Source of the DNA: Eubacterium sp.
Lineage (GTDB): Bacteria; Bacillota; Clostridia; Lachnospirales; Lachnospiraceae
Assembly (NCBI GenBank): GCA_022767895.1
Contig: JALENH010000140.1
Coordinates: 1 to 38,647, forward strand
Direction of reading: 5' to 3'
DNA: 38,647 nt
Below, piece after piece: positions 40-33,262 of this stretch. Within the stretch, counting starts at the first letter, position 1, and each line of letters begins with the position of its first letter. The notes under the pieces were generated by a model. It was not told the origin of the DNA. It made no database searches and saw nothing but the letters and a program-made list of their open reading frames with translations. Position numbers and translations under genes: made by a program.

Positions 40-68
40 TGGACATGTCACAAAAATGGTGATATACT
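40..68 (+). promoter_or_regulatory. Putative sigma-A promoter TGGACA-N17-TATACT for the carbohydrate operon
   Basis: TGGACA at 40-45, 17-nt spacer, TATACT at 63-68; upstream of the first CDS (185). Confidence 0.5.
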
Positions 69-184: not shown

Positions 185-3100
185 ATGTCAAAGTTGATGA
201 AGAAAAAAGGCTTACGGACATTCCTGATTGTAGTACTTGTGATTATTGCATTTGTACTCTTTTTCAAATTAAAGGGTTCGTCTGTCAGCGACAACTCCGA
301 CAAGTACGCAGGTGTGGATTTTGACGCTATGAGCAGCGAATATCAGCGTGAAGGCCAGTATAGTGATTATGTGGCGAAACGCACAGATGCCAATACACCA
401 AGTGGCATCTATGATATTCCGGTTGCGGATTTCGAGAAGAATGAGACAACCAAAAATGTCACTGTACATAACGATCTTGGTCCGGAGAATGAGAAGGGAG
501 AAACTGTTCTGATTCCAGAAGAGGGAAGTGCAGTGTATTCCGTGGATGTGAAGGAAGAAGGCTATTATAATATGCGCCTGGAGTATTATCCTTCGACAGG
601 GGATAAGGATGACCGAGGTATTGCGATTGAGACCAAGGTGGAACTCTACAATGAGGAGACGGGGAAGTTTGAGTCCCCATTTAATGGTGCTGAGGGTATT
701 GACTTCGGACGTGTTTACACTGATGACGGCAAACCGACGAAGGATAACCAGGGGAATGAGATTCGTCCTTCGCAGATTGAAGACCCGACTCGTACATGGA
801 TTTCTTCCTATTTTGAAGATCCTACCGGATATGAGGCAGAACCATATTATTTCTATTTCCATAAAGGTGTGAATAAGATTCGTCTGACTGGTGTTAATGA
901 ACGCCTGATTATGCGCAAGCTGGAAGTCGGCAATAAGAAGAAGACACCTACTTATGCAGAATATGCAGAAGCGAACAAAGGTAAGCCCAATGAAGTTGAG
1001 AAAACCTATGTGAAGAAGATTCAAGGTGAGAAATCGGATCGCCGTTCCTCGCCGTCTTTGTATGCAACTTATGACCGTACATCCGGTGATACAGAGTATG
1101 AGGATCAAGAGGGCAATGTAACAAAGCACAATACGGATAAGCAGGTTCTTAATGTAATCGGTGGTACCCAGTGGAAGGTTGCCGGTGATTGGCTGGAGTG
1201 GACCACTTCCGTTGAAAAAGAAGGTGACTATGTCATTGGTATCAAGGGACGTCAGGGTTATAACCGTGGTTATATTGCCAACCGTTCTCTGCTGATTGAT
1301 GGTGAGGTGCCGTTTGAAGAGGCTTCAAAAGTTCAGTTTACATATAGTAATACGTGGAGTATGCTTTGCCTGCAGAATGAGAAAGGCGAAGCTTACAAAT
1401 TTCATCTGACAGCAGGTGAGCATAAGATTCGTCTGAAGATTACGCTGGGCGAGCTTGGTGAATATCTGCAGCAGCTTTCTGACAGCGTGTACCGCATGAA
1501 CCAGTATTATCGTCAGATTCTTGTATTGACTGGTACCGAGCCGGATGAATTCCGTGATTATCAGATTGAAAAGGTATATCCGGAAATCATTGAAGCTATG
1601 GACGATGAGTCGAAAATTCTGTATCGTCTGGTTGATCAGGTGACAGCATATACCGGTGAGAGAGGTGGCGAGATTTCAGTCGCACAGACGCTGGCTGCAC
1701 AGATGGCCAAATTCGTAGAACGTCCGGATAAGATTCCACAGACACTTTCCAATTTTAAGGAAAATGTTAGCTCGTTGGGAACTTCTATCAATAACCTGAG
1801 TGCTACGGCAATGGATATTGACTATATTGTTCTGGCTGGTGACAAATCGGCAATCGAGGAAGTGAACGAGGGAAGCTTTGACAGAATCGTGCATGAGTGT
1901 ACACTGTTTGTTAATTCCTTCCGCTCGGATTCATCTGCTCTTGGTAACGTGTATGATTCTGATGATCCGGATGTGATTGATGTGTGGATTACCGCTGGAC
2001 GTGACCAGAGTACAATTTTGAAGAATATGGTTGACCAGCAGTTCACGCCGGAATCCAAAGCAAAATACGGAAAAGAAATAAAAGTAAATGTCAAGCTGAT
2101 TGATGCGGCGGCTTCCGCCAACACGGTTACAAACTCAGCTGGTGCGGTAAATGCGATGTTGCCGGCGGTAATGTCCGGTAATGGTCCGGATGTGGCACTT
2201 TGTATTTCACAGACGGAGCCTGTCAACTATGCCCTTCGTGGTGCGACTGTTGACTTGACTCAGTTCCCGGATTACAAAGAGGTTCTTTCGGATTATCAGG
2301 AAAGTTCCTACGTATCTTACTGGTTGAAGGACAAAACGGGACATACCGGATTGTATGGACTTCCGGAGACGGAAAACTACAATGTGCTGTTCTATCGTAC
2401 GGATATTATGGATGAGCTTGGAATTGATGCCACTCAGATTAAGACGTGGGATGATGTTATTAAAATTCTTCCTATACTTCAGAAGAACAGTATGTCTTTT
2501 GCGATTCCTTCGGTAGAGCGTAAGATTAACAATGCATCAAACCCTGACTTGGCAAATTATTATGCACAGTTAGTTCAGCGAGGTGGTTCCCTGTACCGTG
2601 ATGACGGTATCGAGACGACCATCGGAAGCACTGAGGGTATTGAGGCATTTGAGTTCTATACAAAATTGTTTACGAACTATAAGCTGGTTAAACAGTATGA
2701 TTTTGCAAACCGTTTCCGAAGCGGTGAGATGCCAATCGGTGTTGCGGATTATAGTACATTCAATACCTTGTCTGTATTCGCGCCGGAGATTAAAGGTCTT
2801 TGGAACTTTGGAATGGTGCCTGGCGTCCAGCAGGAAGATGGTTCTATAAACTCTTCTGTCCAGAGCTGGGGTACTGCTTCTATGATGCTTCGCGGTGCAG
2901 AGGAGCGCGGCAAGGAAGATATGGCATGGAGCTTTATGAAATGGTGGGCAAGTTCTGATACTCAGGCGACCTATGCAAGAGAACTTGAGGCTGTCATGGG
3001 TGCGGCGGCACGTTATGCAACAGCCAACAAAAAAACTTTCAAGACGCTGTCCTGGAGCAGCAAGGAATCAAAAGCTCTCGAAGAACAGCATAAATGGGCA

Positions 3101-3322
3101 TTTGGTATTGCTCAGGTTGCCGGTGGTTACTATACTGAACGTCATATCACCAATGCAATCCGTAAAGTTATGAATAACAACGAGGATCCCCGTGAGACGA
3201 TTCTTGATTATGTTACTACGATAAATAAGGAGTTGTCGAACAAACGAGAAGAGTTTGGATTGAAAACTCTGGAGCAAGAAGAAGCTGAAAAAAACAAAAA
3301 TAAGAGAGGAGTGAGAAGATGA
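185..3322 (+). CDS. Large membrane-anchored extracellular solute-binding protein with N-terminal carbohydrate-binding-like beta domains
   Basis: 1045-aa ORF; N-terminal TM segment (TFLIVVLVIIAFVLFF) without a lipobox Cys; C-terminal half reads as a family 1-type solute-binding protein (AVMSGNGPDVAL...GLPETENYNVLFYRTDIMDELGI); RBS AAAGGAG upstream; followed directly by MalF/MalG permeases. Confidence 0.85.
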   Translation: MSKLMKKKGLRTFLIVVLVIIAFVLFFKLKGSSVSDNSDKYAGVDFDAMSSEYQREGQYSDYVAKRTDANTPSGIYDIPVADFEKNETTKNVTVHNDLGPENEKGETVLIPEEGSAVYSVDVKEEGYYNMRLEYYPSTGDKDDRGIAIETKVELYNEETGKFESPFNGAEGIDFGRVYTDDGKPTKDNQGNEIRPSQIEDPTRTWISSYFEDPTGYEAEPYYFYFHKGVNKIRLTGVNERLIMRKLEVGNKKKTPTYAEYAEANKGKPNEVEKTYVKKIQGEKSDRRSSPSLYATYDRTSGDTEYEDQEGNVTKHNTDKQVLNVIGGTQWKVAGDWLEWTTSVEKEGDYVIGIKGRQGYNRGYIANRSLLIDGEVPFEEASKVQFTYSNTWSMLCLQNEKGEAYKFHLTAGEHKIRLKITLGELGEYLQQLSDSVYRMNQYYRQILVLTGTEPDEFRDYQIEKVYPEIIEAMDDESKILYRLVDQVTAYTGERGGEISVAQTLAAQMAKFVERPDKIPQTLSNFKENVSSLGTSINNLSATAMDIDYIVLAGDKSAIEEVNEGSFDRIVHECTLFVNSFRSDSSALGNVYDSDDPDVIDVWITAGRDQSTILKNMVDQQFTPESKAKYGKEIKVNVKLIDAAASANTVTNSAGAVNAMLPAVMSGNGPDVALCISQTEPVNYALRGATVDLTQFPDYKEVLSDYQESSYVSYWLKDKTGHTGLYGLPETENYNVLFYRTDIMDELGIDATQIKTWDDVIKILPILQKNSMSFAIPSVERKINNASNPDLANYYAQLVQRGGSLYRDDGIETTIGSTEGIEAFEFYTKLFTNYKLVKQYDFANRFRSGEMPIGVADYSTFNTLSVFAPEIKGLWNFGMVPGVQQEDGSINSSVQSWGTASMMLRGAEERGKEDMAWSFMKWWASSDTQATYARELEAVMGAAARYATANKKTFKTLSWSSKESKALEEQHKWAFGIAQVAGGYYTERHITNAIRKVMNNNEDPRETILDYVTTINKELSNKREEFGLKTLEQEEAEKNKNKRGVRR

Positions 3323-4254
3323 ATTTTCTGGGAAAATACGTGCAGATTAAGAAGCGCAATGCAAAGATTGCCTGGAAAAAGGCTAAGATGTCCAAGACAT
3401 GTTACCTGTTCCTGTTGCCATATTTGATTGTGTTTACTGCATTTTACATTTTGCCGGTATTGATGTCGGTCTTCTACAGCTTTACGTACTATAACGTGCT
3501 GGAGCCGGCAAGATTCGTCGGTGTAGATAATTACATCGACCTGCTCCTTGCAGATGATGTGTTCCTGATTGCGGTCAAGAACACATTCCTGCTGGCAGCA
3601 ATCACAGGTCCGCTTGGATATATTATGGCGTTCCTCTTTGCCTGGTTCATTAACGAGCTGCCGAGATACATTCGTGCGTTTGCCGTTTGTGTGTTCTACG
3701 CACCTACAATTTCGGGTCAGGCATATCTGGTATGGTCCATTCTGTTCAGTGGAGATGCATACGGCTATGTAAATTCATTTTTGATAAAGTTTGGTTTGAT
3801 TAGTGAGCCGATTCTATGGCTTACAGACACAAAGTATATGATGAATGTTATTATCATCGTTGTACTGTGGATGAGTCTTGGTCAGGGATTCTTGTCCTTT
3901 GTTGCCGGACTTCAGGGTATTGACAACTCGCAGTTTGAGGCTGGTTATGTGGACGGTGTAAAGAACCGCTGGCAGGAGTTGTGGTACATAACACTTCCTG
4001 GTATGAAACCAATGCTTCTGTTCGGTGCCGTTATGGCCATTACTCAGACCTTTGGTGTGGCAGACCAGACGATGTCACTTTGTGGTTTCCCTAGTACCGA
4101 TTACGCGGCGCGTACGGTAGTTACCCATTTGATTGATTATGGTACAACTCGATTTGAAATGGGTTACGCCTCTGCGATTGCAACCATATTGTTTGCGGTG
4201 ATGCTTCTGTTGAATAAGGCAATACAGTCGCTGCTGAGCAAAGTTGGAACTTGA
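3319..4254 (+). CDS. Sugar ABC transporter permease (MalF/UgpA type)
   Basis: 311 aa, multiple TM segments, EAA-like loop (FEAGYVDGVKNRWQELWYITLPGMKP); ATGA overlap with the preceding CDS. Confidence 0.9.
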   Translation: MNFLGKYVQIKKRNAKIAWKKAKMSKTCYLFLLPYLIVFTAFYILPVLMSVFYSFTYYNVLEPARFVGVDNYIDLLLADDVFLIAVKNTFLLAAITGPLGYIMAFLFAWFINELPRYIRAFAVCVFYAPTISGQAYLVWSILFSGDAYGYVNSFLIKFGLISEPILWLTDTKYMMNVIIIVVLWMSLGQGFLSFVAGLQGIDNSQFEAGYVDGVKNRWQELWYITLPGMKPMLLFGAVMAITQTFGVADQTMSLCGFPSTDYAARTVVTHLIDYGTTRFEMGYASAIATILFAVMLLLNKAIQSLLSKVGT

Positions 4255-4271
4255 TAGGAGGTATCGCAAAG

Positions 4272-5135
4272 ATGAAATTATTTAAAATAAAACGAAGAAA
4301 GCCGAACCGCTCCGTTGGTGGTGATATCGGTATTTACATTTTGCTGATCCTGTTTGGTATCTTCTTTGTACTGCCATTGGTATATTCCATCAGTAGTGCA
4401 TTTAAACCGTTGGATGAGATTTATATCTACCCGCCAAGATTTTTCGTGAAAAATCCTACCTTTAACAACTTTCAGGATTTGCTTGTTGTTATGTCAAGTT
4501 CTTATGTGCCGTTTACGAGATACGTATTTAACACCGTATTCATTACCGTACTTGGTACAGTAGGACATCTGATTATCGGCTCTATGGCCGCATATGTATT
4601 GGCAAAATATGATTTTCCGGGTGGAAAAAGAATATTTAAAATTATTCAGGCAGCCATCATGTTTAATGCCTATGTGTTGCAGATTCCTACCTATATTATC
4701 ATGAGCAAACTGGGATGGATTGATACATATCTGGCATTGATGGTTCCGGCACTTGCCCTGCCAATGGGATTGTTCCTGATGAAACAGTTTATGGAGCAGA
4801 TACCGGATGCGCTGATTGAAGCGGCAAAGATTGACGGTGCCAAGGAAGGACGTATCTTCCTGCGGATTGTTATGCCGAACGTAAAGCCGGCATGGCTGAC
4901 AGTTACGATTTTCTCTGTACAGAACCTTTGGAATATGAAAGGTCAGGTATATATATATTCGGAAGAATACAAGATGCTGCCATATGCTTTGCAGCAGATT
5001 ATGGCCGGTGGTGTCGCTCGTGCAGGTGTTGGCTCGGCGGCAACCATGGTTGTTATGATGGTGCCGATTGTAATCTTTATTCTGGCAGAGAGTAACATTC
5101 TGGAAACCATGGCTAGTTCCGGAATTAAAGACTGA
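4272..5135 (+). CDS. Carbohydrate ABC transporter permease (MalG/UgpE type)
   Basis: EAA loop EAAKIDGAKEGRIFLRIVMPNVKP; start placed at the ATG after AGGAGG rather than at the upstream TTG of the ORF track (4251). Confidence 0.9.
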   Translation: MKLFKIKRRKPNRSVGGDIGIYILLILFGIFFVLPLVYSISSAFKPLDEIYIYPPRFFVKNPTFNNFQDLLVVMSSSYVPFTRYVFNTVFITVLGTVGHLIIGSMAAYVLAKYDFPGGKRIFKIIQAAIMFNAYVLQIPTYIIMSKLGWIDTYLALMVPALALPMGLFLMKQFMEQIPDALIEAAKIDGAKEGRIFLRIVMPNVKPAWLTVTIFSVQNLWNMKGQVYIYSEEYKMLPYALQQIMAGGVARAGVGSAATMVVMMVPIVIFILAESNILETMASSGIKD

Positions 5136-5151
5136 TAAAGGAGGAAAAGAA

Positions 5152-6639
5152 ATGAGAAAAATGAAACGATTTACTTCTGTATTTGCGTTATTACTCGTTG
5201 CATCCCTCCTTGTAGGCAATGTGGAGGCTCTGGCAAACAGTTCAGACGGCAAACATTATACATATACATATGATTGCTGGGATGTGGATCGTGAATCTCC
5301 GGATGCCTATTCGGTTGAACGGGTTATTTCGGGCTCTGATTTTAGCAAATGCGGAAATTTTTCCGAACCACAGGGAATCTACTCAACAGGCAATAAGATG
5401 TATGTTGTAGATACCGGAAACAACAGAATCTGTGAATTCGTTTATGAGAACAGTGAGTTTACCTTTGTGAAGGATGTGAAAGGTTACAAGAATGCTGAGG
5501 GAAAAGATGTTGCACTCAATGGTCCTCAGGATGTGTTCGTAACAGAGGACGGACAGATGTATATTGCCGATACCGGTAATAACAAAATCGTTCATCTGGA
5601 TGCACAGGGAGGTCTTGTAAAAGAGATTGGACGTCCGGAGGATAAGACCTACACAGACCCCAAATTCTTGCCACAGAAGCTGGTAGTGGATGGAGCGAGA
5701 CGTGTTTTTGCTCAGGTTCAGAATGTTAACAAAGGTTTCCTGGAATTCGATGATGCCGGAGACTTTACCGGTTTTGTAGGAGCAAGCGAAGTTACTTACG
5801 ACTTCTTCACATATTTGTGGAAAATGGTGGCAACGAAAGAGCAGAGAGCACAGATGGAGTTGTTTGTACCAACAGAGTACTCGAACCTGTGTCTTGACTC
5901 AGAAGATTTTATTTATGCGACTATCAGTACCTTTGATGGAGCAGTAGAATCTGCTGAGCCGATTCGTAAGCTGAATGCAAAAGGTACCGATATCCTCGTC
6001 CGCAATGGTTATAACGATCCATACGGTGATTTGCGTTATACCGAGCGAGGAGAGATGAAAGGACCTTCCAAGTTTGTCGATATCTGTTGTCTGCCGAATG
6101 ACGTATATTATGCACTGGATAATACAAAGGGACGTATCTTTGCTTATGATTTCCAGGGTAACATGCTATATGCTTTTGGTGGACATGGTTACAAAGCGGG
6201 ATTGTTTATGAATCCGTCTGCGATTGAGGATCTCGGTGATTCACTTCTTGTTGTGGATCAGAAACTGGGAACCATTACTCAGTTTACTTTGACCGAATAC
6301 GGAAGACTGATTAATGAGGGCCTGGCAGAATATAAGAAGGGGCATTATGAGAAATCTGCTGAAATCTGGCGTGAGGTACTGAAACATAATGGTAACTACG
6401 ATCAGGCATATATTGGAATTGGTCGTGCACTCCTGCGTGAAAAGAAATATAAAGAGGCAATGGAGTATTTTGAGTTGAAGTTGGATGCAAAGAACTATTC
6501 CAAAGCATTCAAACTATATCGAGAAGAGTGGTTTGAAGAGAACATCGGCACAATCCTTGTGATTCTTGCAATTCTCATTCTTCTGGGCTTTGGCGTTGGA
6601 TTCGTGAAGAAAGCCAGAAGGGAGGTTGAAAAAGGATGA
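5152..6639 (+). CDS. Secreted NHL-repeat beta-propeller protein with TPR-like segment and C-terminal TM anchor
   Basis: Signal peptide; NHL motifs (PQGIYSTGNKMYVVDTGNNRICEF, PQDVFVTEDGQMYIADTGNNKIVHLD); TPR-like helices (EYKKGHYEKSAEIWREVLKHNGNYDQAYIGIGRALLREKKYKEAMEYFELKLD); TM near the C-terminus. Confidence 0.8.
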   Translation: MRKMKRFTSVFALLLVASLLVGNVEALANSSDGKHYTYTYDCWDVDRESPDAYSVERVISGSDFSKCGNFSEPQGIYSTGNKMYVVDTGNNRICEFVYENSEFTFVKDVKGYKNAEGKDVALNGPQDVFVTEDGQMYIADTGNNKIVHLDAQGGLVKEIGRPEDKTYTDPKFLPQKLVVDGARRVFAQVQNVNKGFLEFDDAGDFTGFVGASEVTYDFFTYLWKMVATKEQRAQMELFVPTEYSNLCLDSEDFIYATISTFDGAVESAEPIRKLNAKGTDILVRNGYNDPYGDLRYTERGEMKGPSKFVDICCLPNDVYYALDNTKGRIFAYDFQGNMLYAFGGHGYKAGLFMNPSAIEDLGDSLLVVDQKLGTITQFTLTEYGRLINEGLAEYKKGHYEKSAEIWREVLKHNGNYDQAYIGIGRALLREKKYKEAMEYFELKLDAKNYSKAFKLYREEWFEENIGTILVILAILILLGFGVGFVKKARREVEKG

Positions 6640-7301
6640 AAATAAAAGAAAGACTGACCAATAAAGATGCATGGATTCGTTATCGTGATTCACTTCGTTA
6701 TTCCCTGCATTGTATCGTAAGACCTTTTGATGGTTTTTGGGATTTGACTCATGAAAAGAGAGGTTCTATGGCGGCTGCCAATACAATTATCATTTTGGTT
6801 CTTTTGACAAACCTGATCAAATTGGGAGCAACCAGTTTTGTGTTTAATCCTGTCAATTGGGATAATGTGAACCTGATTTTAGAAATGGCAACTTTCATTG
6901 TACCATTTATTGTGTATGTTGTGGCAAACTGGTGCCTGACAACGTTGTTTGATGGTAAAGGTACATTGAAGGATATCTGGATGGGAACAGCTTATGCGAT
7001 GACACCTTACGTGCTCATTCAGTTGATTCTGATTCCGCTTAGTAATGTTGTTACCGAAGAAGAAGGTGCATTTTACTCGGTGTTCAGTAATTTCTCACTG
7101 ATATGGTGTGGACTGCTGATAATTGCATCGGTTATGATGATTCATGATTTCATGTTGGGAAAAGCATTTTTATCACTGATTTTCTCAGCTGTGGGAATGC
7201 TGATTATCGTATTCCTGCTAGTACTCTTCTTCAGTTTGATTAGTGATGGTTTCTCATATTTCTATTCGATTTATAAAGAAACCGTATTCCGAATGTATTG
7301 A
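6636..7301 (+). CDS. Yip1-family polytopic membrane protein
   Basis: 221 aa, several TM segments, Yip1-like motif (VANWCLTTLFDGKGTLKDIWMGTAYAMTPYVL); overlaps the previous stop. Confidence 0.75.
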   Translation: MKIKERLTNKDAWIRYRDSLRYSLHCIVRPFDGFWDLTHEKRGSMAAANTIIILVLLTNLIKLGATSFVFNPVNWDNVNLILEMATFIVPFIVYVVANWCLTTLFDGKGTLKDIWMGTAYAMTPYVLIQLILIPLSNVVTEEEGAFYSVFSNFSLIWCGLLIIASVMMIHDFMLGKAFLSLIFSAVGMLIIVFLLVLFFSLISDGFSYFYSIYKETVFRMY

Positions 7302-7321
7302 TGAAAGGAGGAAATGGCAGA

Positions 7322-9913
7322 ATGAAAAAGAAATTGTATTTGCTCCTGATTGCAGTACTTTCGTGTTTTTTGTTTGTTGCCTGTGGTGAAAGTGATGAAG
7401 GCGGCAAGGAAATGGAGACATATGAGTATGACAATAGCGGAGATGTTACAATTGAGAATGATTCATTGAAACTTACTGTTAGTGGTTCCTCCACTCAGAT
7501 TGAGATTACAGATAAGGCAACCGGCAAGACATATAGTTCTAATCCATCATCGGAAGATGTGGAGAAGTATGCTGCCGCTGAGGGACACTACAAAGATGTA
7601 TTGAGTTCAACTTTGAATCTTACATACTCAAATAGCACGGATACCAAGAAAGAGATTGATAATTATTCGCAGTGTATTCGGGACAATCAGTTTTATAAGA
7701 TTGAGAAAGTAAGTGACAATGAAATTAAAGTAAGTTATTCGGTAGGTGATTTCGAGAAAACCTATACTTGCCCGGTGGCAATCAAAGAATCTCGGATGAA
7801 ACAGTATTTGGATAAAATGTCTTCATCAGAACAAAAGTCGGCGCTTCGTAGTTATATTTATTACAATTATGAAGAACTGAATTCCTCTGATGAGGCTTCC
7901 GACAAAGAGCTGTTGACGAAGGGGGAGAAGTTGTTCCCGGATTTGAAAGATGAGCCAATTTACTATTTGGATGAAGAAGTCACAGATTCTCGTCTTCAGC
8001 AGTTGGAGACAAAATTTGAAAAGGCTGGTTATACGTTAGATGATCGTGCGAAAGATATGGGAGATTACAAAGTATCCCGTAACGAAGGAAAGCCGATTTT
8101 CGATATTTCCGTACATTATGTACTTGAGGACAATCATCTGCTTGTAAAGGTTCCGATGAAGGAGATCTCTTACAATGAAGATTATCCGATTGTTAAGTTG
8201 CAGCTTCTTCCTTATATGGGAGCATCTAATAAGGACGAGAACGGTTATATGCTCGTTCCGGAAGGAAGCGGTGGAAAGATCAACTTCAATAACGGCAAGA
8301 CCGGTCAGCAGAGATATCAGAGTGATATTTATGGATGGGATTACGGACAGGCTCGTACAACAATTGTAGATGAGACAAAATCCAATTTTCCATTGTTTGC
8401 GATTGCCAATGAGACAAGTAAAAGTTCCTTCCTGTGTGTTGCAGAAGAGGGAAGCTCCTATGCTACCGTGCAGGCTGATATATCAGGAAAGAATAATGGA
8501 TACAATTACAGCACGTTCATTTATAGCATGATTCATGGTGAGAATATGGATGTGTCGACCAAATCGGATACGACGGTTCGTGTTTATGAAGACGGTCTTC
8601 CGGATGAGACAATTTCCCAGAGATACATCTTCACAGATTCAACTGATTATTCAGAATTGGCGAAGGAATATCGCGGCTATCTTCAGAAGAAGTATCCAAA
8701 TCTTGGAAAAGTAGATGGCAATAGTCAGGCACTGGCTGTAGAGATGATTGGTGCTGTGGACGATACGGAACATATTCTGGGGTATCCTGTTGTTCGTTCC
8801 CAGTCGTTGACTTCCTATACACAGGCAAAAACGATTCTAGAGGACTTGAAAAAAGCCGGGATTGGAAATGTTAATGCTAAGTATACTGGTTGGTTTAACA
8901 CCGGTGTAAAACAGACATCGGCACAGAAAGTAAGTACTGTTGGTCGTCTTGGAAGTTCTTCTGATTTGGAAGATTTGACAGCATATGCAGACAAGACAGA
9001 TGGTATGGATCTTTATCTGAATGGTACATTCAACTATGTATACAAAGATAAATGGTTTGATGGATTCAGCTCAACAAGAAATGCGGCCAAGTTTGTCAGC
9101 AGAGAAGAGTGTGAATTGTATAACTGGGATCCAATTACTTATCAGGCAAATGATGATTATACAGAATATCATAATTATGATAGTTATTACCTTGTGAAAC
9201 CAGCCTATGCGATGGAATCCGTTGACAATTATGTAGAAGAAGTCAATGATTACGGAAGTAAAAACATAGGTATGGAAGATATCGGTAATACACTTGCCGG
9301 TGATTACAATCCGAAAGATCGCGTATCCCGTGAGGCCGCGTTAAATCTCCAGGTGAAGAAAATGCAGTCCCTGAAACAGGGTGGCAATAAGGTAATGATC
9401 ACCGGAGGTAACCAGTATGCTGTACCATATGCAGATTTTGTGACGGATATGAATCTGGATGCCCGCGCTGTCAATATCATTGACGAGCAGGTTCCGTTCT
9501 ATCAGATGGCGTTACATGGCCTGGTAAATTATTCCGGAACAGCTATTAATCTGGCAGAGAATCAGGAAGAAAATATTCTGAAATCTGCAGAAACAGGTGC
9601 TGGTTTATACTTCACCTACATCGCAGAAAAGACAAGTGTTTTACAGGATGGTAAATATACCAGATATTATGCTTGTAATTATGATGATTGGAAAGATGAT
9701 ACTTTGAACTTGTATAACAAGTTCAGCGAGACATTCGAGGGTACTTACGATAAAGGAATTGACAAGCATGAGAGACTTGCTGATGGCGTATATAAGACGA
9801 CCTTCGAAGGCGGAAAAGCAGTAGTTGTAAACTACAACTATAGCAACTATCAATACAATGGCCAGGAGATTCCGGCCAGAGATTTCGCAGCAGTGAAGGG
9901 AGGTGAAGAATAA
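7322..9913 (+). CDS. DUF5696-like lipoprotein, possibly glycoside-hydrolase-like
   Basis: Lipobox LFVACGE; large extracellular protein; start at the ATG after AGGAGG (ORF track start 7298 is upstream); family assignment by sequence reading and genomic context. Confidence 0.65.
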   Translation: MKKKLYLLLIAVLSCFLFVACGESDEGGKEMETYEYDNSGDVTIENDSLKLTVSGSSTQIEITDKATGKTYSSNPSSEDVEKYAAAEGHYKDVLSSTLNLTYSNSTDTKKEIDNYSQCIRDNQFYKIEKVSDNEIKVSYSVGDFEKTYTCPVAIKESRMKQYLDKMSSSEQKSALRSYIYYNYEELNSSDEASDKELLTKGEKLFPDLKDEPIYYLDEEVTDSRLQQLETKFEKAGYTLDDRAKDMGDYKVSRNEGKPIFDISVHYVLEDNHLLVKVPMKEISYNEDYPIVKLQLLPYMGASNKDENGYMLVPEGSGGKINFNNGKTGQQRYQSDIYGWDYGQARTTIVDETKSNFPLFAIANETSKSSFLCVAEEGSSYATVQADISGKNNGYNYSTFIYSMIHGENMDVSTKSDTTVRVYEDGLPDETISQRYIFTDSTDYSELAKEYRGYLQKKYPNLGKVDGNSQALAVEMIGAVDDTEHILGYPVVRSQSLTSYTQAKTILEDLKKAGIGNVNAKYTGWFNTGVKQTSAQKVSTVGRLGSSSDLEDLTAYADKTDGMDLYLNGTFNYVYKDKWFDGFSSTRNAAKFVSREECELYNWDPITYQANDDYTEYHNYDSYYLVKPAYAMESVDNYVEEVNDYGSKNIGMEDIGNTLAGDYNPKDRVSREAALNLQVKKMQSLKQGGNKVMITGGNQYAVPYADFVTDMNLDARAVNIIDEQVPFYQMALHGLVNYSGTAINLAENQEENILKSAETGAGLYFTYIAEKTSVLQDGKYTRYYACNYDDWKDDTLNLYNKFSETFEGTYDKGIDKHERLADGVYKTTFEGGKAVVVNYNYSNYQYNGQEIPARDFAAVKGGEE

Positions 9914-10828
9914 ATGGCTCGCAAAAACAAAAAGAAAAAGACCCTGGCATTTAAAAATGCAGTTGCAGGCTATTTATTTATTGCACCATTTATCATCGGG
10001 TTTATCTTGTTCCTTGTTGTTCCGCTGATACAGTCATTGCGAATGAGTTTTAGTACGGTAGAACTTGAGGGCGGATTGTCTATGACTTGGGCAGGACTTG
10101 AAAACTACCGCCAGGCGTTCTTAGTGGATGAGCAGTTTGTTCCGAACCTGATTTCAGAGCTTGTAAAGATGCTGACTAATGTTCCGGCGACATTGATTTT
10201 CAGTTTCTTTATAGCATTACTGTTAAATCAGTCCTTTAAGGGAAGAGGTGTCGTGCGTGCTATCTTCTTCCTGCCGGTAATTCTTTCATCCGGCGTTATT
10301 GTTGGTCTGGAGAGTGGAAACACACTTCTGGCTGACATGAAGGATGCCATTGAGGCTTCCTCAAACGATACGAGTATTACAGGAGTACTGGAAAGTATTT
10401 TGATTACTTCAGATTCCAGTCCGATGTCACAAATGTTTGGATATGTATTTGATATCATCAACAGTGTATATGACATTGCGATTGCGTCCGGTATCCAGAT
10501 TATTATTTTCCTTTCTGCTTTGCAGACAATTTCGCCAAGTATGTTTGAGGCGGCTAAAATTGAGGGATGTACCGCATGGGAGAGTTTCTGGAAGATTACA
10601 CTTCCAATGGTTAGTTCCATGATTCTGGTAAATATCGTGTATACCGTTATTGACTTCTTCTTAAAGACAGATAATACGGTTATGGAAAGAATTGATGCGA
10701 TAGGTATCGGAGGCCGAATGGATTATGGTCAGGCGTCAGCTATGGCGTGGGTATATTTTCTATGTGTAATTGTAGCGTTGGGTATTGTTTCGTTGATTAT
10801 TTCTAGGAGGGTATATTATTATGAGTAA
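9914..10828 (+). CDS. Sugar ABC transporter permease (MalF type) with a long inter-TM insertion
   Basis: EAA loop FEAAKIEGCTAWESFWKITLPM; TM pattern; insertion about SGNTLLADMKD...FGYVFDIINS. Confidence 0.88.
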   Translation: MARKNKKKKTLAFKNAVAGYLFIAPFIIGFILFLVVPLIQSLRMSFSTVELEGGLSMTWAGLENYRQAFLVDEQFVPNLISELVKMLTNVPATLIFSFFIALLLNQSFKGRGVVRAIFFLPVILSSGVIVGLESGNTLLADMKDAIEASSNDTSITGVLESILITSDSSPMSQMFGYVFDIINSVYDIAIASGIQIIIFLSALQTISPSMFEAAKIEGCTAWESFWKITLPMVSSMILVNIVYTVIDFFLKTDNTVMERIDAIGIGGRMDYGQASAMAWVYFLCVIVALGIVSLIISRRVYYYE

Positions 10829-11816
10829 GATAGGTAGTAAGTTTAAGACCTTCAGGGAACGTAATAAAAAATCCAACGGCTATTTGTTACGAAAAGTGTC
10901 CTTCAATGTGGCATATAAAATTATTCGTTTTGTATTGTTGTTTGGATTATGTTTCCTGATTTTGCAGCCATTGCTGAATAAGATTTCCATTAGTTTTATG
11001 GAAGAACGGGATTTGTATGACTCTACAATAAATGTTATTCCTCGCCATTTTACGCTGGACAATTTTAAGATAGCCAGTGACCTGATGGATTATTGGGCGG
11101 CTCTTGGAAATACTTTGTGGATTTCCCTGTTAGTAAGTCTTCTTCAGATCGTTTCCTGTACTTTGGTAGGATATGGTTTTGCAAGATACAAGTTCCCGTT
11201 GAAGGGCCTCTGGTTTGCTATGGTGGTGCTGGTGATTGTCATTCCACCATCTACAATCCAGTCTTCCCTGTATTTGAATTTCCGTTACTTTGATATTTTC
11301 GGAATATTTACGTTGATTACGGGACAACCGTTAAACCTCTTGGATTCCTTTGCTCCATATGCGTTTATGTGTTTGGGCTGTATGGGATTGAAAAATGGAC
11401 TTTATATCTACATGCTTCGTCAGTTCTTCCGTGGAATACCAAAAGAGCTGGAAGAGGCCGCTTATGTAGATGGATGTGGCAAAGTAAAGACTTTTATTCG
11501 GATTATGTTGCCGGATGCAAAACCAATGATTACATCCTGTTTTCTGTTCTCCTTCGTATGGCAGTGGACGGATAGTTTTTATTCGGGAATGTTCCTTCCA
11601 AACTATTCGATTCTGGCCAATAAGGTAGCACGTCTGTCTGAAGTGCTTAACTCTTATGTGAAGGCAACAACAGGTCTGGACAAAGCTTCGACAGCATATG
11701 CTTCGGCAATGATTGGTACAGGTACTTTGCTGGTAATCATTCCATTGATTGTTGTTTACCTGTTTGCTCAGAAAGGCTTTGTAGAAAGCTTGAGCCAGTC
11801 AGGTATTAAGATGTAA
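10821..11816 (+). CDS. Carbohydrate ABC transporter permease (MalG type)
   Basis: EAA-type loop LEEAAYVDGCGKVKTFIRIMLPDAKP; 8-nt overlap with the upstream permease. Confidence 0.88.
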   Translation: MSKIGSKFKTFRERNKKSNGYLLRKVSFNVAYKIIRFVLLFGLCFLILQPLLNKISISFMEERDLYDSTINVIPRHFTLDNFKIASDLMDYWAALGNTLWISLLVSLLQIVSCTLVGYGFARYKFPLKGLWFAMVVLVIVIPPSTIQSSLYLNFRYFDIFGIFTLITGQPLNLLDSFAPYAFMCLGCMGLKNGLYIYMLRQFFRGIPKELEEAAYVDGCGKVKTFIRIMLPDAKPMITSCFLFSFVWQWTDSFYSGMFLPNYSILANKVARLSEVLNSYVKATTGLDKASTAYASAMIGTGTLLVIIPLIVVYLFAQKGFVESLSQSGIKM

Positions 11817-11823
11817 TATATTT

Positions 11824-11839
11824 CGCCGCTTCGGCGGCG
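11824..11839 (+). promoter_or_regulatory. Intercistronic UUCG-tetraloop hairpin
   Basis: CGCCGC-TTCG-GCGGCG, 6-bp perfect GC stem, no T-tract after it. Confidence 0.75.
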
Positions 11840-11922
11840 GGAGATGCAAAACAGCAAAATTTGGTTATAACCGGCTGGTGTGCAACCGGTATAGCAATAT
11901 AAAAAATAAGGAGGCAAAAAAA

Positions 11923-13359
11923 ATGAAAGCAAGCATGCAAAAACTGATTGCAATGGGTCTTTGTGTCGTTCTTGCAGTAGGAACACTTACTGGATGTAAT
12001 GGCAGCGATTCCGCAAAGGATGGCAAAACAGCATCCGGTTCCAGTGCGAATGGCAAATCTGCAGATAAGAAGACATTTGATGACCTGGGTGGCATGGAGA
12101 TTACAGTTGGTGACTGGTTTACATCAAAGGATACCCTTGCTGACCGAACAGACGAATTTGGTAAAAAGCAGAACGAATACTGGAAGAGTATTCAGGATCA
12201 GTATAATTTCAAAATTACTCGTGATTCTGTATACTCCTATACAGATGCTAAGTCAGATTATGTAAATGATGTTATGGCGAGCAGCCCGAAATATGAGTTG
12301 TACTATCTGTATCAGGAATTCGTATCAGAGCCATTGATGAAGGGTCTGATGTATAACTTGTCAACACTTCCTGAGTTTGATTTCTCTGAGGAGAAGTGGA
12401 ATCCTACGGTAAAAGAGTTGATGAGCATTGGTGATGGAATCTGGGGTATGAGTCCTGACAACGAGCCACGTGGAGGTATCTTCTACAACAAACGTCTCTT
12501 CAAGGAAGCAGGTATTCCAGAGGATGAGCCATATGAACTGCAGAGAAAGAACAAGTGGACATGGGATAAATTTGAAGAGTATTGCAAGAAGCTGACCAAA
12601 GATACCGATGGTGATGGTAAGACAGACCAGTATGCAATGGCAAGTTTCTCCAAATATTATTTGCCTATGTGTGCAGCTAATAATAATGCTACATTCGTAA
12701 GCCGTGGAGAAGATGGCAAGTACCAGAATGCAATCACGAGCAAAGAGTTCAAAGATGCTATGAACTGGGGTGTTGACTTGATTAAGAAAGGTTACATTAA
12801 GCCAAAACCATCAGAGAATGTAGCATGGGATTGGTACAAAGCAGCATTCCGTGATGGTGAAGCAGCAATGCAGACCGCTGAGGTTTATGAGATTAGTGCT
12901 TTCGCTGATATGGAAGATGACTGGGGCTTCGTAATGTTCCCATACAATCAGGATCAGGAAGGTGCAACCAACAAGCAGACACCAAACGACAATATTGTAG
13001 TTATGCCAGCCTGCTTTGATGCTGAAAAAGCTGAGAAGATTGCTTTTGCTTATGACTTGTATACAGAGCCAATCGATGGTTACACACCTGAGCAGCAGAT
13101 TCTTGAGCAGTATTATCCAAAGTTCAGAGATGATTATGCTGTCGATGAGACCATTTCTATGATGCTTGAAGAAGAGCACAAATCAACCTCCTATCTGCCA
13201 ATGATCAGTGAGATTGATTATGGTGATTTCTGTTATCCGGTATATGCAATGGCAACAACGCCAGCAAAGAAGATCGAAGAGCTTTCGACCAAATGGGATG
13301 CTAAGATCAGTAAAGTAAATGCAGAATATGAGAAGTTTGCAAAAGCGCACACAAAATAA
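11923..13359 (+). CDS. Extracellular solute-binding lipoprotein of a carbohydrate ABC transporter
   Basis: Signal peptide plus lipobox (AVGTLTGC); RBS AAGGAGG before ATG 11923; SBP-like body. Confidence 0.88.
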   Translation: MKASMQKLIAMGLCVVLAVGTLTGCNGSDSAKDGKTASGSSANGKSADKKTFDDLGGMEITVGDWFTSKDTLADRTDEFGKKQNEYWKSIQDQYNFKITRDSVYSYTDAKSDYVNDVMASSPKYELYYLYQEFVSEPLMKGLMYNLSTLPEFDFSEEKWNPTVKELMSIGDGIWGMSPDNEPRGGIFYNKRLFKEAGIPEDEPYELQRKNKWTWDKFEEYCKKLTKDTDGDGKTDQYAMASFSKYYLPMCAANNNATFVSRGEDGKYQNAITSKEFKDAMNWGVDLIKKGYIKPKPSENVAWDWYKAAFRDGEAAMQTAEVYEISAFADMEDDWGFVMFPYNQDQEGATNKQTPNDNIVVMPACFDAEKAEKIAFAYDLYTEPIDGYTPEQQILEQYYPKFRDDYAVDETISMMLEEEHKSTSYLPMISEIDYGDFCYPVYAMATTPAKKIEELSTKWDAKISKVNAEYEKFAKAHTK

Positions 13360-13394: not shown

Positions 13395-13443
13395 AAGGGC
13401 TGTTCAGAATAAGCGGAAGGTTTGTTTTGCACAGCCCTTTCTT
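13395..13443 (+). terminator. Putative terminator/stem-loop after the solute-binding protein gene
   Basis: AAGGGCTGT ... ACAGCCCTT (13395-13403 with 13431-13439), long loop, short T-rich tail. Confidence 0.45.
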
Positions 13444-13522: not shown

Positions 13523-15493
13523 ATGAATTTTAGCAAATGTTGGCTGGATTATAAACCCTTGGCAGAATATGAACAGGAGTGGCTGACTTTGGCTGTGCAA
13601 TGTGAGGGTAAAATTGTCAGCAGTGCTGTACGGGAATATAAGCTTGCCATGAAGGAAATGACTGGGAAGGGACTTGATGTTATCAATACCCCGGCAGAGC
13701 AAGGAGTTAATTTGAAACTGGATGCCGAATTGGTATCCGGCCAGGATGGTTATACCATCTCTGTCAGTGGAGAAAAATATGAAATTACCGGGCAGTCAGA
13801 AAGTGGTATACTATATGGTGTATTTCATTTTCTGCGGCTGATTCGCACTGGGCATCTGGAAGAACTTCCCGTGGCAAATACACCGGAGATGCCTTTGCGC
13901 ATCATGAACCACTGGGACAATATGGATGGCAGTATTGAGAGAGGGTATTCCGGGGAATCCTTTTTTTACAAGGACTACGAGATTCTCTGGGATGAGCGCA
14001 TTGAGCAGTATACCCGTATGATGGCCTCCATCGGTATCAATGCCATTGTCATTAATAATGTCAATGTGCATGAGAAGGAGACGTATCTTATCACGGACCG
14101 TTATCTGCAGCAGGTAAAGCAGTATTCAGATTTGTTCAATCAGTATGGAATTTCCTTGTATACCAGTGTCAATTTTGCTGCGCCGATGGAACTGGGGGAT
14201 TTTGATAATTGTGACCCCCTGAATCCGGATGTGGCAGCGTGGTGGAAAAAAACAGTTGCCCATGTTTATGAAGTAATACCGAATTTTGGAGGCTTTTTGG
14301 TAAAGGCAGACTCCGAGGGAAGACCGGGGCCTTTTACCTATGACCGCACCCATGCAGACGGTGCCAACATGTTGGCAAGGGCGCTGGCTCCGTTTGGTGG
14401 TACCTTGATTTGGCGTTGTTTTGTTTATAATTGTGGACAGGACTGGCGGGATAAAAAGACAGACCGTGCCAGAGCCGCTTACGATAACTTTATTGGTCTG
14501 GACGGACAGTTTGATGACAATGTGATTCTGCAGATTAAAAACGGACCGATGGATTTCCAAGTGAGAGAACCGGTATCGCCTCTGTTTGGTGGGTTGAAAA
14601 AGACCAATATGATACTGGAAGTGGAGATTGCCCAAGAGTATACCGGTCAGCAGATTGATCTCTGTTATCTTCTGCCGATGTGGCGGGAAATCCTTGATTT
14701 TGATACGTATGCTGAAGGAGAAGGCTCTACGGTACAGAAGATTGTCAATGGCTCTGTCTATGGGCAAACGCTCTGTGGTATGGCAGCGGTGATTAATACG
14801 GGTAATGATTTCAACTGGACCGGCAGTGATCTGGCGGCGGCGAATACTTATGGTTATGGCAGAATGACCATGAATCCGTCTCTGTCATCGGATGTGATTG
14901 CCAGAGAATGGACCGAACTGACACTTGGCTCAGAAGTAGAGCAGGAAATCGTGCCGATGCTTATGAAGTCCTGGTCCACTTATGAAAAATATACGTCGCC
15001 CCTTGGCATTGGCTGGATGGTGACACCTCATTATCACTACGGGCCGGATATTGACGGCTACGAATATGACCGATGGGGAACCTATCACCGGGCAGACCGG
15101 GATGGTCTGGGTGTGGACCGTACACCGGCTGGGACAGGCTACACGGATCAATACAATGAACCTTGGCGGACTGTGTATGCGGATCCGGAAACGTGTCCGG
15201 AGGAATTGCTGTTATTCTTCCATTATGTGCGGTATGATGCTGTACTCAAAAGCGGAAAAACCCTGATTCAGCATATCTATGACACCCATTTTGAAGGAGT
15301 GGAAGAGGTTGAGGAGATGATTGCCCGTTGGGAGTCGTTGCAGGACAAACTGGCAGAGGATGTTTATGAACGCGTGCATGAGCGTATGGAGAGACAGCTT
15401 GCCAACGCCAGAGAGTGGCGAGACCGTGTGAATACCTATTTTTACCGCAAGAGTGGTGCAGAGGATGCACAGGGACGTAAAATTTATGAATAA
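13523..15493 (+). CDS. aguA: Alpha-glucuronidase, GH67 family, cytoplasmic
   Basis: GH67-like sequence (PLRIMNHWDNMDGSIERGYSGESFF, GFLVKADSEGRPGPFTYDRTHADGANMLARALAPFGG); no signal peptide; next to uxuA/uxuB. Confidence 0.92.
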   Translation: MNFSKCWLDYKPLAEYEQEWLTLAVQCEGKIVSSAVREYKLAMKEMTGKGLDVINTPAEQGVNLKLDAELVSGQDGYTISVSGEKYEITGQSESGILYGVFHFLRLIRTGHLEELPVANTPEMPLRIMNHWDNMDGSIERGYSGESFFYKDYEILWDERIEQYTRMMASIGINAIVINNVNVHEKETYLITDRYLQQVKQYSDLFNQYGISLYTSVNFAAPMELGDFDNCDPLNPDVAAWWKKTVAHVYEVIPNFGGFLVKADSEGRPGPFTYDRTHADGANMLARALAPFGGTLIWRCFVYNCGQDWRDKKTDRARAAYDNFIGLDGQFDDNVILQIKNGPMDFQVREPVSPLFGGLKKTNMILEVEIAQEYTGQQIDLCYLLPMWREILDFDTYAEGEGSTVQKIVNGSVYGQTLCGMAAVINTGNDFNWTGSDLAAANTYGYGRMTMNPSLSSDVIAREWTELTLGSEVEQEIVPMLMKSWSTYEKYTSPLGIGWMVTPHYHYGPDIDGYEYDRWGTYHRADRDGLGVDRTPAGTGYTDQYNEPWRTVYADPETCPEELLLFFHYVRYDAVLKSGKTLIQHIYDTHFEGVEEVEEMIARWESLQDKLAEDVYERVHERMERQLANAREWRDRVNTYFYRKSGAEDAQGRKIYE

Positions 15494-15603: not shown

Positions 15604-16674
15604 ATGGACATGACATTGAGATGGTATGGAGAGGGAAACGACAGTGTAACATTGGATCAGATTCGCCAGATTCCCGGCGTGACCGGTGTAATCACCGCTC
15701 TTCATGATATTCCGGCAGGAGAGCCATGGACTTATGAAGACGTTATGAAACGCAAGAAAGAGGTAGAGGCCAAAGGCTTGAAATTAGTGGGCGTTGAGAG
15801 TATCAACGTGCATGAGGATATCAAAATTGGTCTTCCTACAAGGGACAAATTGATTGAAAATTATTGCAAGTCCCTGGAGGCAATTGGAAAAGCAGACATT
15901 CATCTGGTTTGCTACAACTTTATGCCGGTGTTTGACTGGACCAGAACTGATCTTGCCATGCCTTTGGAGGATGGCTCCACGGCACTTGCCTATGATTCCT
16001 CTATCATTGACGGAATTGACGCCAGTGAGATGTTTGACCGCATTGAGAAAGCCAGTGGCGGTTTCGTAATGCCGGGCTGGGAGCCAAACCGTCGGGATGA
16101 GATTATGGATTTGTTCGATAAGTATAAAGATGTAGATGCAGACAAGCTTCGTGAGAATTATAAATATTTCCTGGATGGAATTATGCCAACTTGCGAGAAG
16201 TATAAGATTAAGATGGCTGTGCATCCGGATGATCCGGCATGGGATGTTTTTGGACTTCCAAGAATTGTTACCTGTGAGGAGGATCTTTTGAAGATTGCTG
16301 AGATGAATCCAAGCATTTACAATGGATTTACCCTTTGCACCGGTTCCCTGGGAAGTAATTTGAACAACAACCTTCCGGAGATTATCCGCAATCCGAAAAT
16401 AGCAGAGAGAATCCATTTTGCTCATATCCGCAATATTAAATATGAGAATAAGGATTTGTTCCATGAGGTATCCCACTTGTCCAGCGATGGTAATCTGGAT
16501 ATGTATGAAATCGTGAAGGCGCTGATTGACATGGGCTTTGATGGCTGTATCCGTCCGGACCACGGACGGATGATTTGGGATGAGCAGGCAAGACCGGGTT
16601 ATGGGTTGTATGACCGTGCACTGGGAGTGGCTTATCTCAACGGATTATGGGAAGCAATTCACAAGAACAAATAA
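15604..16674 (+). CDS. uxuA: Mannonate dehydratase
   Basis: UxuA-like sequence (MDMTLRWYGEGNDSVTLDQIRQIPGVTGVITALHDIPAGEPW..., CTGSLGSNLNNNLPEII). Confidence 0.95.
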   Translation: MDMTLRWYGEGNDSVTLDQIRQIPGVTGVITALHDIPAGEPWTYEDVMKRKKEVEAKGLKLVGVESINVHEDIKIGLPTRDKLIENYCKSLEAIGKADIHLVCYNFMPVFDWTRTDLAMPLEDGSTALAYDSSIIDGIDASEMFDRIEKASGGFVMPGWEPNRRDEIMDLFDKYKDVDADKLRENYKYFLDGIMPTCEKYKIKMAVHPDDPAWDVFGLPRIVTCEEDLLKIAEMNPSIYNGFTLCTGSLGSNLNNNLPEIIRNPKIAERIHFAHIRNIKYENKDLFHEVSHLSSDGNLDMYEIVKALIDMGFDGCIRPDHGRMIWDEQARPGYGLYDRALGVAYLNGLWEAIHKNK

Positions 16675-16686: not shown

Positions 16687-18294
16687 ATGAAGTTATTAGA
16701 TGTGGAAAATGGTTCCAGAAAAGAGTGGGAGGAGAAGGGCTATGAACTGCCGGCTTACGACAGGGAAGCTGTAAAGAAGGAAACAAAGGAAGCTCCGACC
16801 TGGGTTCATTTTGGTGCCGGTAATATTTTTCGTGCCTTTCCTGCTGCTAAACTGCAGGAGCTTCTGAACGATGGAAGCTATGATAAAGGTGTTATTGTGG
16901 CTGAAAGTTTTGACCATGAGATTATTACAAAAGCTTACAAACCCTATGATGGATTGAGTCTGTCTGTTGTTTTGAAGGCAGGCGGCACCATTGAAAAGCA
17001 TGTGGTAGGAAGTGTTGTGGAATCGCTGGTTGCGGATCCTTCGGAGCCGGAAGATTTTTGCAGATTGACAGAAATTTTTGAAAATCCTTCTCTGCAGATG
17101 GTGACCTTTACTATCACGGAAAAAGGCTATTCTTTAGTCAACGGAAAAGGTGAGAATCTTCCGGGGGTAGAGGATGGACTGGCGGCTGGGCCGGGACAGC
17201 AGAGTCATCTTATGGGACGGATTGCGACCCTCTGTTACGAGCGTTTTCAGAAAAATGCAGCGCCTCTGGCACTTGTCAGTACAGACAACTGCTCTCACAA
17301 CGGGGACAAGCTGAAGGCCGGTGTGATGGATTATGTGAAAGCGTGGAAAGAGGCCGGTAAAGTGGGAGACGACTTTGTATCTTATATGGAAGAAAAAATT
17401 TCTTTCCCATGGTCCATGATTGATAAGATTACGCCGAGACCGGACGAGAATGTCAAGGAGATGTTGGAGAAGGACGGTTTTGAAGATACGGAACTGATTA
17501 TTACAAGCCGCAACACCTATACAGCTCCTTTTGTGAATTCCGAGGAGACCGGTTATCTTGTAATTGAGGATGATTTCCCCAATGGCCGTCCGCCATTGGA
17601 AAAAGCAGGAATTGTCTTTACGGAGAGAGAGACGGTGGATAAGGTAGAAAAAATGAAGGTTTGTACCTGCCTGAATCCGCTGCATACGGCACTGGCAATT
17701 TACGGCTGTATGCTTGGGCATACTTCTATTCACGATGAGATGGAGGATGCTGAGCTGAGCACCCTGATTGAGAAAATGTGTTATGACGAGGCAATGCCGG
17801 TGGTTGTAGATCCGGGTGTTATCAATCCGAAAGAGTTTGCGGAAGCTGTTTTGAAAAAACGTCTTCCCAATCCTTTTATGCCGGATACCCCACAGCGTAT
17901 CGCCTGCGATACATCCCAGAAACTGCCGATTCGATTTGGCGAGACCATCAAATTGTATCAGTCCAGAGAGGATTTAGATCCGAAGAACCTGACATTGATT
18001 CCTCTTGTACTGGCAGGATGGTGCCGTTATCTCATGGGAGTGGATGATGAAGGAAATGCATTTGAGCAGAGTCCGGATCCTCGTCTGGATGAGGTGAAAG
18101 CCTACGTGCAGGGAATCTCCTTTGGAGATAGCAATGTGCATGCGGCACTGAAACCGATTCTTTCCGATGCTACCATATTTGCCGTAGATCTTTATGAAGT
18201 GGGACTTGGTGAGAAGGTAGAGGGAATGTTTGTGGAACTGATTGCAGGACCGGGAGCGATTCGTGCGACATTAAAGAAGTATACGAAGGCCTAA
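16687..18294 (+). CDS. uxuB: Mannitol dehydrogenase family protein, probable fructuronate reductase
   Basis: Polyol dehydrogenase features (VHFGAGNIFRAFPAAKLQELL, VCTCLNPLHTALAIYGCMLGH); adjacent to uxuA. Confidence 0.85.
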   Translation: MKLLDVENGSRKEWEEKGYELPAYDREAVKKETKEAPTWVHFGAGNIFRAFPAAKLQELLNDGSYDKGVIVAESFDHEIITKAYKPYDGLSLSVVLKAGGTIEKHVVGSVVESLVADPSEPEDFCRLTEIFENPSLQMVTFTITEKGYSLVNGKGENLPGVEDGLAAGPGQQSHLMGRIATLCYERFQKNAAPLALVSTDNCSHNGDKLKAGVMDYVKAWKEAGKVGDDFVSYMEEKISFPWSMIDKITPRPDENVKEMLEKDGFEDTELIITSRNTYTAPFVNSEETGYLVIEDDFPNGRPPLEKAGIVFTERETVDKVEKMKVCTCLNPLHTALAIYGCMLGHTSIHDEMEDAELSTLIEKMCYDEAMPVVVDPGVINPKEFAEAVLKKRLPNPFMPDTPQRIACDTSQKLPIRFGETIKLYQSREDLDPKNLTLIPLVLAGWCRYLMGVDDEGNAFEQSPDPRLDEVKAYVQGISFGDSNVHAALKPILSDATIFAVDLYEVGLGEKVEGMFVELIAGPGAIRATLKKYTKA

Positions 18295-25802: not shown

Positions 25803-25851
25803 ACGCAAAGGGAATTGTGATATGGGATCATAATGCCATTTGCGTTTTTCT
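25801..25851 (+). terminator. Strong intrinsic terminator-like hairpin between codY and flgB
   Basis: AAACGCAAAGGGAATTGTGAT-atggg-ATCATAATGCCATTTGCGTTT, about 21 positions paired with two mismatches, followed by a T-tract. Confidence 0.8.
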
Positions 25852-25869
25852 AAGAGAGGAAGTGAGGAT

Positions 25870-26259
25870 ATGGTTTTATCAAATGCTTACAACTACATAA
25901 ACGTATTGGATCGGGCAGCGGATGCCAGCTGGACACGAAATGATGTGCTGGCAAATAATATTGCCAATGCCGATACGCCGGGGTACAAGAGAAAAGATGT
26001 GCAGTTTGAGACCTATTTGTCCAATGCCGTGGCGGGGACGGATTCCCTGGATGAGACTGTGGCAAACATTGACCTCAACGAATTAAATGCCACCGTATAT
26101 ACGGAGCAGCCGGGACTCAGTTATCGTATTGATGGCAATAATGTGGATATTTCCACGGAAAATGTAGAACTGGCAAAGAATCAGATAAAGTATTATACGT
26201 TGATGAATTCCATCAATCAGGAATTTTCTCGTATGAAGTCAGCTCTTAAAACAACATAA
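25870..26259 (+). CDS. flgB: Flagellar basal body rod protein FlgB
   Basis: DVLANNIANADTPGYKRKDVQFE; start of flagellar operon. Confidence 0.93.
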   Translation: MVLSNAYNYINVLDRAADASWTRNDVLANNIANADTPGYKRKDVQFETYLSNAVAGTDSLDETVANIDLNELNATVYTEQPGLSYRIDGNNVDISTENVELAKNQIKYYTLMNSINQEFSRMKSALKTT

Positions 26260-26280
26260 GTAAGCTAAGGAGGGATTGAT

Positions 26281-26721: not shown

Positions 26722-26758
26722 TGATATCAGGATATGATTGTGGGAACGGAGGAATAGA

Positions 26759-27085: not shown

Positions 27086-27116
27086 AGACTATAGCTTTGG
27101 GGAGCGATAAAAAACA

Positions 27117-30590: not shown

Positions 30591-30621
30591 TTGAGCACCA
30601 TCAAGCAGGAAGGTTATTAAC

Positions 30622-31956: not shown

Positions 31957-31959
31957 GCG

Positions 31960-32409: not shown

Positions 32410-32422
32410 AAGGAGATCAATT

Positions 32423-33181: not shown

Positions 33182-33193
33182 AAGACTATAAAC

Positions 33194-33221: not shown

Positions 33222-33262
33222 ATATTTCGTAGATGATTTTTAAGAAGAAAGGAGGGAAGAGA

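Follow-up and report, generated by a model that had tools for sequence, protein, structure and literature searches.

A widespread twin CUT1 importer cassette around an NHL-TPR, Yip1 and DUF5696 core, most likely for glucuronoxylan fragments in a Lachnospiraceae genome

Two sets of ABC importer genes in a Eubacterium sp. genome are separated by three genes for envelope proteins that are not transporter components, and the question is what this core does between them. The locus lies at 185-13359 of a 38,647-nt stretch (the window), which is one entire contig (JALENH010000140.1, assembly GCA_022767895.1) of a 2.58-Mb, 90% complete genome whose closest named relatives are uncultured Lachnospiraceae. 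It is most likely a widespread twin CUT1 importer cassette around a membrane-bound core, of the same kind as the published xylan degradation locus (XDL) of Caldicellulosiruptor bescii, and here most likely serves the import of glucuronoxylan fragments; we put this reading at about two in three. The cassette is not ordinary, because its core is strictly conserved and unexplained, and it is not a categorically new machine, because its importers are CUT1 and its gene order has been published before, for one genus.

An earlier note on this DNA had described nine co-directional genes with tight junctions, and the open reading frames (ORFs), their Pfam matches and their overlapping or short junctions bear this out, all nine lying on the + strand. 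The 4-nt ATGA overlaps are true at two junctions, SBP1/P1F and NHL/Yip1 (SBP, solute-binding protein), and the second permease pair, P2F/P2G, overlaps by 8 nt. The cassette runs on into GH67 and uxuA-uxuB:

185..3322, + strand: SBP1, 1045 aa, with an N-terminal membrane anchor (Pfam SBP_bac_8)
3319..4254, + strand: P1F, MalF/UgpA-type permease of importer 1, XloF-like (BPD_transp_1)
4251..5135, + strand: P1G, MalG/UgpE-type permease of importer 1, with EAA loop; likely start ATG 4272
5152..6639, + strand: NHL-TPR protein with a signal/transmembrane (TM) segment at 10-28, NHL beta-propeller, TPR at 386-444 and C-terminal TM segment at 467-485
6636..7301, + strand: Yip1-domain integral membrane protein, about 5 TM segments (Pfam Yip1)
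7298..9913, + strand: DUF5696 lipoprotein, lipobox FVAC, predicted GH129/GH101-like fold; likely start ATG 7322
9914..10828, + strand: P2F, MalF-type permease of importer 2, AxoF-like, with EAA loop (UgpA match)
10821..11816, + strand: P2G, MalG-type permease of importer 2, AxoG-like, with EAA loop (BPD_transp_1)
11878..13359, + strand: SBP2, solute-binding lipoprotein related to 6rjy; likely start about 11923
13523..15493, + strand: GH67 alpha-glucuronidase, no signal peptide (cytoplasmic); closest solved relative 1mqp
15604..16674, + strand: UxuA, mannonate dehydratase
16687..18294, + strand: UxuB-like fructuronate reductase of the mannitol dehydrogenase family

Three of the starts are probably mis-called, namely TTG 4251 of P1G, TTG 7298 of DUF5696 and GTG 11878 of SBP2; an ATG with a good ribosome site is found at 4272, 7322 and about 11923, respectively.

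Distribution of the core and its permeases

The family sample consists of 200 genomes of the same family and the window's own genome (201 in all). Yip1 and full-length DUF5696 occur in an identical set of 43 of these genomes, and the NHL family has the same distribution, short partial propeller or TPR matches aside. Yip1 loci adjoin DUF5696 in 72 of 75 cases, and the other three are all in one genome and were judged only among its DUF5696 matches listed. Among Bacillota loci fetched from family and phylum genomes, NHL and/or Yip1, DUF5696 and at least one permease of the second pair stand together in 80 of 80, unless the contig ends. Of the 80 named loci taken from an independent collection, NHL with Yip1 is seen in 79, both P2 permeases in 78 and the full eight-gene order in 69, and several of those without the full order run off the contig. 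The scan of this collection, with seven closer sequences as the query, confirmed at least 573 relatives, with Treponema among the matches listed. Some genomes carry six or more copies of the core, which is also present in other families and in Treponema. The arrangement recurs in most of the 160 other loci, far beyond chance, and an accident of the Lachnospiraceae is ruled out by the phylum-wide loci. The conserved linkage of core genes to permeases on which the earlier note had staked its proposal is thus found (Yip1/DUF5696, 43/43 genomes; Bacillota loci, 80/80).

The same note saw the locus as nearly symmetric about its core. Both importers do flank the core here, but SBP1-P1F-P1G lies downstream at L119, L124, L128 and L129 and is missing from the locus at L108, L110, L111, L115 and L116, with full-length SBP1 genes elsewhere in such genomes. 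In both groups NHL-Yip1-DUF5696-P2F-P2G is still together. Since SBP1-P1F-P1G is movable and the core stays with P2F-P2G, the core is tied most tightly to permease pair 2. Over 105 loci the pairwise distances among the nine proteins show correlations of 0.85-0.96, and mean identity is lowest for SBP2 (30%) and highest for P1F (61%). These correlations used no outside control protein, and therefore speak of joint inheritance, not contact.

The published xylan locus and the core proteins

The order seen in the window is published as xloEFG-X-GH129-axoFGE-xynF... in the XDL of Caldicellulosiruptor/Anaerocellum bescii (Athe_0174-0185), which encodes two CUT1 transporters, XloEFG and AxoFGE, and is upregulated on xylan (PMC8579813), so that the machine cannot be called undescribed. 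The regulator XynR binds the XDL operator (PMC12285236). This operator was sought, as an exact match, in seven genomes of one genus; it is present in three of the seven, including G379, and absent from L121, L122 and L125. At the G379 locus (L234) it lies at 706-725, 104 bp before the SBP1 ORF (810), and SBP1 is followed by P1F, P1G, a 717-aa NHL-Yip1 fusion (NHL 510 bits, Yip1 219 bits), DUF5696, P2F, P2G, SBP2 and GH43. The exact operator and this gene order therefore identify the window's arrangement with that of the XDL, and 'X' with an NHL-TPR-Yip1 fusion.

The NHL protein of the window matches Pfam NHL plus TPR; its beta-propeller and TPR stretch are followed by a TM segment at the C terminus, and its neighbour matches Pfam Yip1 (E 1e-11). 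In 26 homologous loci one gene encodes NHL-TPR joined to Yip1, the TM segment between the two being retained, and these fusions support a putative physical complex. A single-sequence structure model of Yip1 was unusable (pLDDT 59), and a literature search on DUF5696, or on Yip1 alongside NHL and transporters, turned up no account of the core.

DUF5696 (Pfam match E 1e-187) appears related to the glycosidases of GH129. Its AlphaFold model, built from 63 sequences (pLDDT 88.7, pTM 0.86), matches the GH129 structures 5opq, 8rzk and NagBb with Foldseek E values of 2e-30 to 1e-21 and TM-scores by target of 0.65-0.74, the best figures being E 2e-30 for 5opq and 0.70-0.74 by target for NagBb. GH101 structures match more weakly. 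Sequence profiles agree with a GH129 fold (profile E 2e-12; hhalign 96% over 418 columns; about 12% identity). The Pfam model for DUF5696 also overlaps GH129.

The catalytic residues were mapped through remote hhalign alignments with 12 GH129 proteins. D435 and E478 of NagBb, which we take to be the nucleophile and the acid/base, map to D661 and T702 of the window protein. ZgGH129 gives an identical acid/base column, and its Michaelis complex carries D486N, which backs the nucleophile assignment. The nucleophile-equivalent position is Asp in 110/161 homologues (68%), the acid/base-equivalent position is D/E in 19%, and both are acidic in 10. The window protein thus shares fold and profile with GH129 and has a threonine in place of the acid/base. 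Judging from the model and the alignments, DUF5696 would be a GH129 fold mostly without the GH129 catalytic pair, and it is not filed here as GH129. D669, D729 and E765 are highly conserved and, with D661, are well conserved in the window's DUF5696 subfamily, so a different chemistry is possible.

Weak DUF5696 matches are also seen in a group of Lachnospiraceae proteins of ~640 aa (L220-L231). L220, the one tested, is a close homologue of the GH129 enzyme NagBb and is possibly a mucin-type alpha-GalNAc enzyme.

Importers, cargo and alternative explanations

SBP1 matches SBP_bac_8 (E 1e-18). Weak CBM35/Golvesin-like beta-sandwich modules precede its solute-binding domain (family 1/8, about 600-1000), which is related to Lin1841 and CbpB. 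The permeases match BPD_transp_1, except P2F, which is below the Pfam cut-off and matches UgpA instead. The EAA loop is canonical in three of them, and P1F has an EAG variant. SBP2 matched no Pfam family; it aligns to 6rjy, which binds arabino-oligosaccharides (E 2e-12). No ATPase is encoded in the locus; two MalK-type ATPases (MalK OB-domain matches) are found elsewhere in the genome and may partner the importers. At L105 and L109, at least four genes for SBP2-type binding proteins follow the cassette in succession, which suggests one importer serving several binding proteins. Many Lachnospiraceae loci (L063, L065, L069 and similar) have a gene for a protein of ~630 aa between P2G and SBP2. 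That of L063, the only one tested singly, has three CBM65_1 stretches, and the protein is probably a glycan-binding protein.

The neighbouring enzymes favour glucuronoxylan fragments as the cargo here. The window encodes GH67, UxuA and UxuB, and the close relative L141 has a divergent GH43 xylosidase-type gene upstream and GH3 after SBP2 (five other close relatives have ORFs of similar size at this upstream place). The window's genome has ten GH10 matches, and GH67 is linked to the loci with the most window-like SBP2. The neighbours at other loci include GH10, GH26, GH31, GH43, GH3, CBM65, pectin-lyase-like and alpha-galactosidase genes, and this variety makes the cassette a general chassis.

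In the proposed mechanism, SBP1 with P1F and P1G, and SBP2 with P2F and P2G, would form the two importers, powered by a shared ATPase encoded elsewhere in the genome, and would take up aldouronic and xylo-oligosaccharides from glucuronoxylan. Cytoplasmic GH67 would then remove glucuronic acid, with UxuA/UxuB routing it into hexuronate catabolism. The NHL propeller, the TPR and DUF5696 would be extracytoplasmic, the propeller and TPR being tied to the Yip1 membrane domain. The core, with its mostly non-canonical DUF5696, may handle glycans or serve as a scaffold, mainly together with permease pair 2, joining that pair in a membrane complex and handing substrate over to the permeases. Treponema is diderm, and the same proteins there would face the periplasm, so oligosaccharide handling, rather than polymer handling, would be the more general role. 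A stronger proposal, that NHL-TPR, Yip1 and DUF5696 form an obligate membrane complex with CUT1 permeases, a newly recognized accessory apparatus of oligosaccharide importers in which a GH129-fold protein that has lost its catalytic role offers glycans to the transporter, is tentative and somewhat doubtful.

Several points weigh against the reading as a glucuronoxylan importer cassette with a glycan-handling core. The distance correlations, having no outside control, partly reflect shared descent. The catalytic assignment in DUF5696 leans on remote alignments, and D661, D669, D729 and E765 could serve another chemistry. Neighbours such as GH26, pectin-lyase-like and alpha-galactosidase genes mean that the cassette as a class is not confined to xylan, and its presence in the diderm Treponema makes a direct role on surface polymers less general. 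For this organism the support comes from genes and sequence.

The GH129 likeness could also mean that DUF5696 works outside the cell as an active glycoside hydrolase, divergent but GH129-related, which trims oligosaccharides before import, with NHL and Yip1 serving only to anchor it. The fold (5opq, E 2e-30), the nucleophile-equivalent Asp kept in 110/161 homologues including the window's, and the GH129 annotation of the C. bescii homologue would all fit. However, the acid/base position is T702 in the window and D/E in just 19% of homologues, both positions are acidic in only 10/161, and the GH129 substrates on record (alpha-GalNAc, 3,6-anhydrogalactose) do not fit xylan, which makes an active hydrolase rather unlikely. 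The mobility of SBP1 and permease pair 1, and the naming of XloEFG and AxoFGE as separate transporters (PMC8579813), are what would be seen if two independent importers were merely adjacent in a hemicellulose locus and the core genes did unrelated envelope work. The strict co-occurrence of NHL, Yip1 and DUF5696, the core adjoining pair 2 in the 80 fetched loci, a linkage that holds over highly diverged sequences in two phyla, and the NHL-Yip1 fusions argue against mere adjacency, which is clearly unlikely. It is more improbable still that the core is a sensor or regulator which detects glycan outside the cell with its propeller and sets how active or abundant the importers are, without carrying glycan: a propeller, a TPR and a multi-TM architecture are compatible with ligand-dependent protein contacts, but a kinase, a regulator and a cytoplasmic signalling domain are all absent from the module, and Yip1 has no known output domain.

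The twin CUT1 cassette with a membrane-bound core is therefore the preferred reading. The earlier interpretation, a scaffold or surface processing complex feeding one or both importers, is partly borne out. The linkage and the fusions favour a complex, the novelty and the full symmetry fall away, and surface processing would be a putative role for a core whose DUF5696 mostly lacks the GH129 catalytic pair.

Transcription signals and relation to known systems

The nine-gene cassette is plausibly one transcription unit, as the earlier note had proposed, because a promoter-like site precedes it and its gene junctions showed no terminator-like site. The promoter-like matches, which are pattern matches only and include the site at 40-68, are in total as many as expected by chance. 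The signals are:

40..68, + strand: promoter-like site ahead of the cassette, TGGACA-17-TATACT with TG before the -10 (pattern match)
11821..11842, + strand: small, stable GC hairpin between P2G and SBP2 (z -2.8)
13395..13441, + strand: strong hairpin with a U-rich tail between SBP2 and GH67 (-26.2 kcal/mol, z -6.4)

The small hairpin is possibly an mRNA processing or stability element. The strong one is likely a terminator or attenuator marking the operon or attenuation boundary of the cassette, so GH67-uxuA-uxuB may depend on read-through or separate expression. An Rfam search of the window gave zero matches. Further along the contig, at 25840-38537, a flagellar/basal-body gene cluster of motile Lachnospiraceae was recognized by eye.

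CUT1 importers are the route for most plant-fibre fragments in Gram-positive gut and biomass-degrading bacteria, and are usually described as a binding protein and two permeases. A strictly linked three-protein core that occurs in 43 of 201 sampled genomes of one family, in some genomes in six or more copies, and in other families and Treponema suggests an overlooked component of plant-fibre uptake in gut and biomass-degrading bacteria. The breadth of the cassette, the identity of 'X' as an NHL-TPR-Yip1 fusion, and DUF5696 as a GH129 fold mostly without the catalytic pair are not in the literature searched. They revise how 'X' and 'GH129' are annotated in the published model locus, whose host, C. 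bescii, is genetically accessible.

The cassette shares an SBP and MalF/MalG-type permeases with EAA loops, and a locus without an ATPase, with the CUT1 (MalFGK-type) importers that use a shared MsmX/MsmK ATPase. Unlike ordinary CUT1 importers, it has two full permease/SBP sets, three non-transporter envelope proteins and an SBP of 1045 aa with CBM-like N-terminal modules. The GH129/GH101 glycosidases (NagBb, ZgGH129) have their fold in common with DUF5696, which differs from them in its unconserved acid/base and in being a lipoprotein inside an importer cassette. In Paenibacillus sp. JDR-2, the aldouronate utilization gene cluster likewise has genes for an ABC transporter beside one for an intracellular GH67, serving glucuronoxylan fragments, and the text of that paper makes no mention of NHL, Yip1 or a twin importer (PMC4765114). 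The C. bescii XDL shares the order of SBP and permeases, a core with a DUF5696/GH129-like protein, then permeases and SBP. It has NHL and Yip1 fused as 'X' whereas the window has two separate genes, and the window runs on into GH67-uxuA-uxuB, whereas C. bescii has such genes in another XynR operon, aguX-uxuBA-bgaL.

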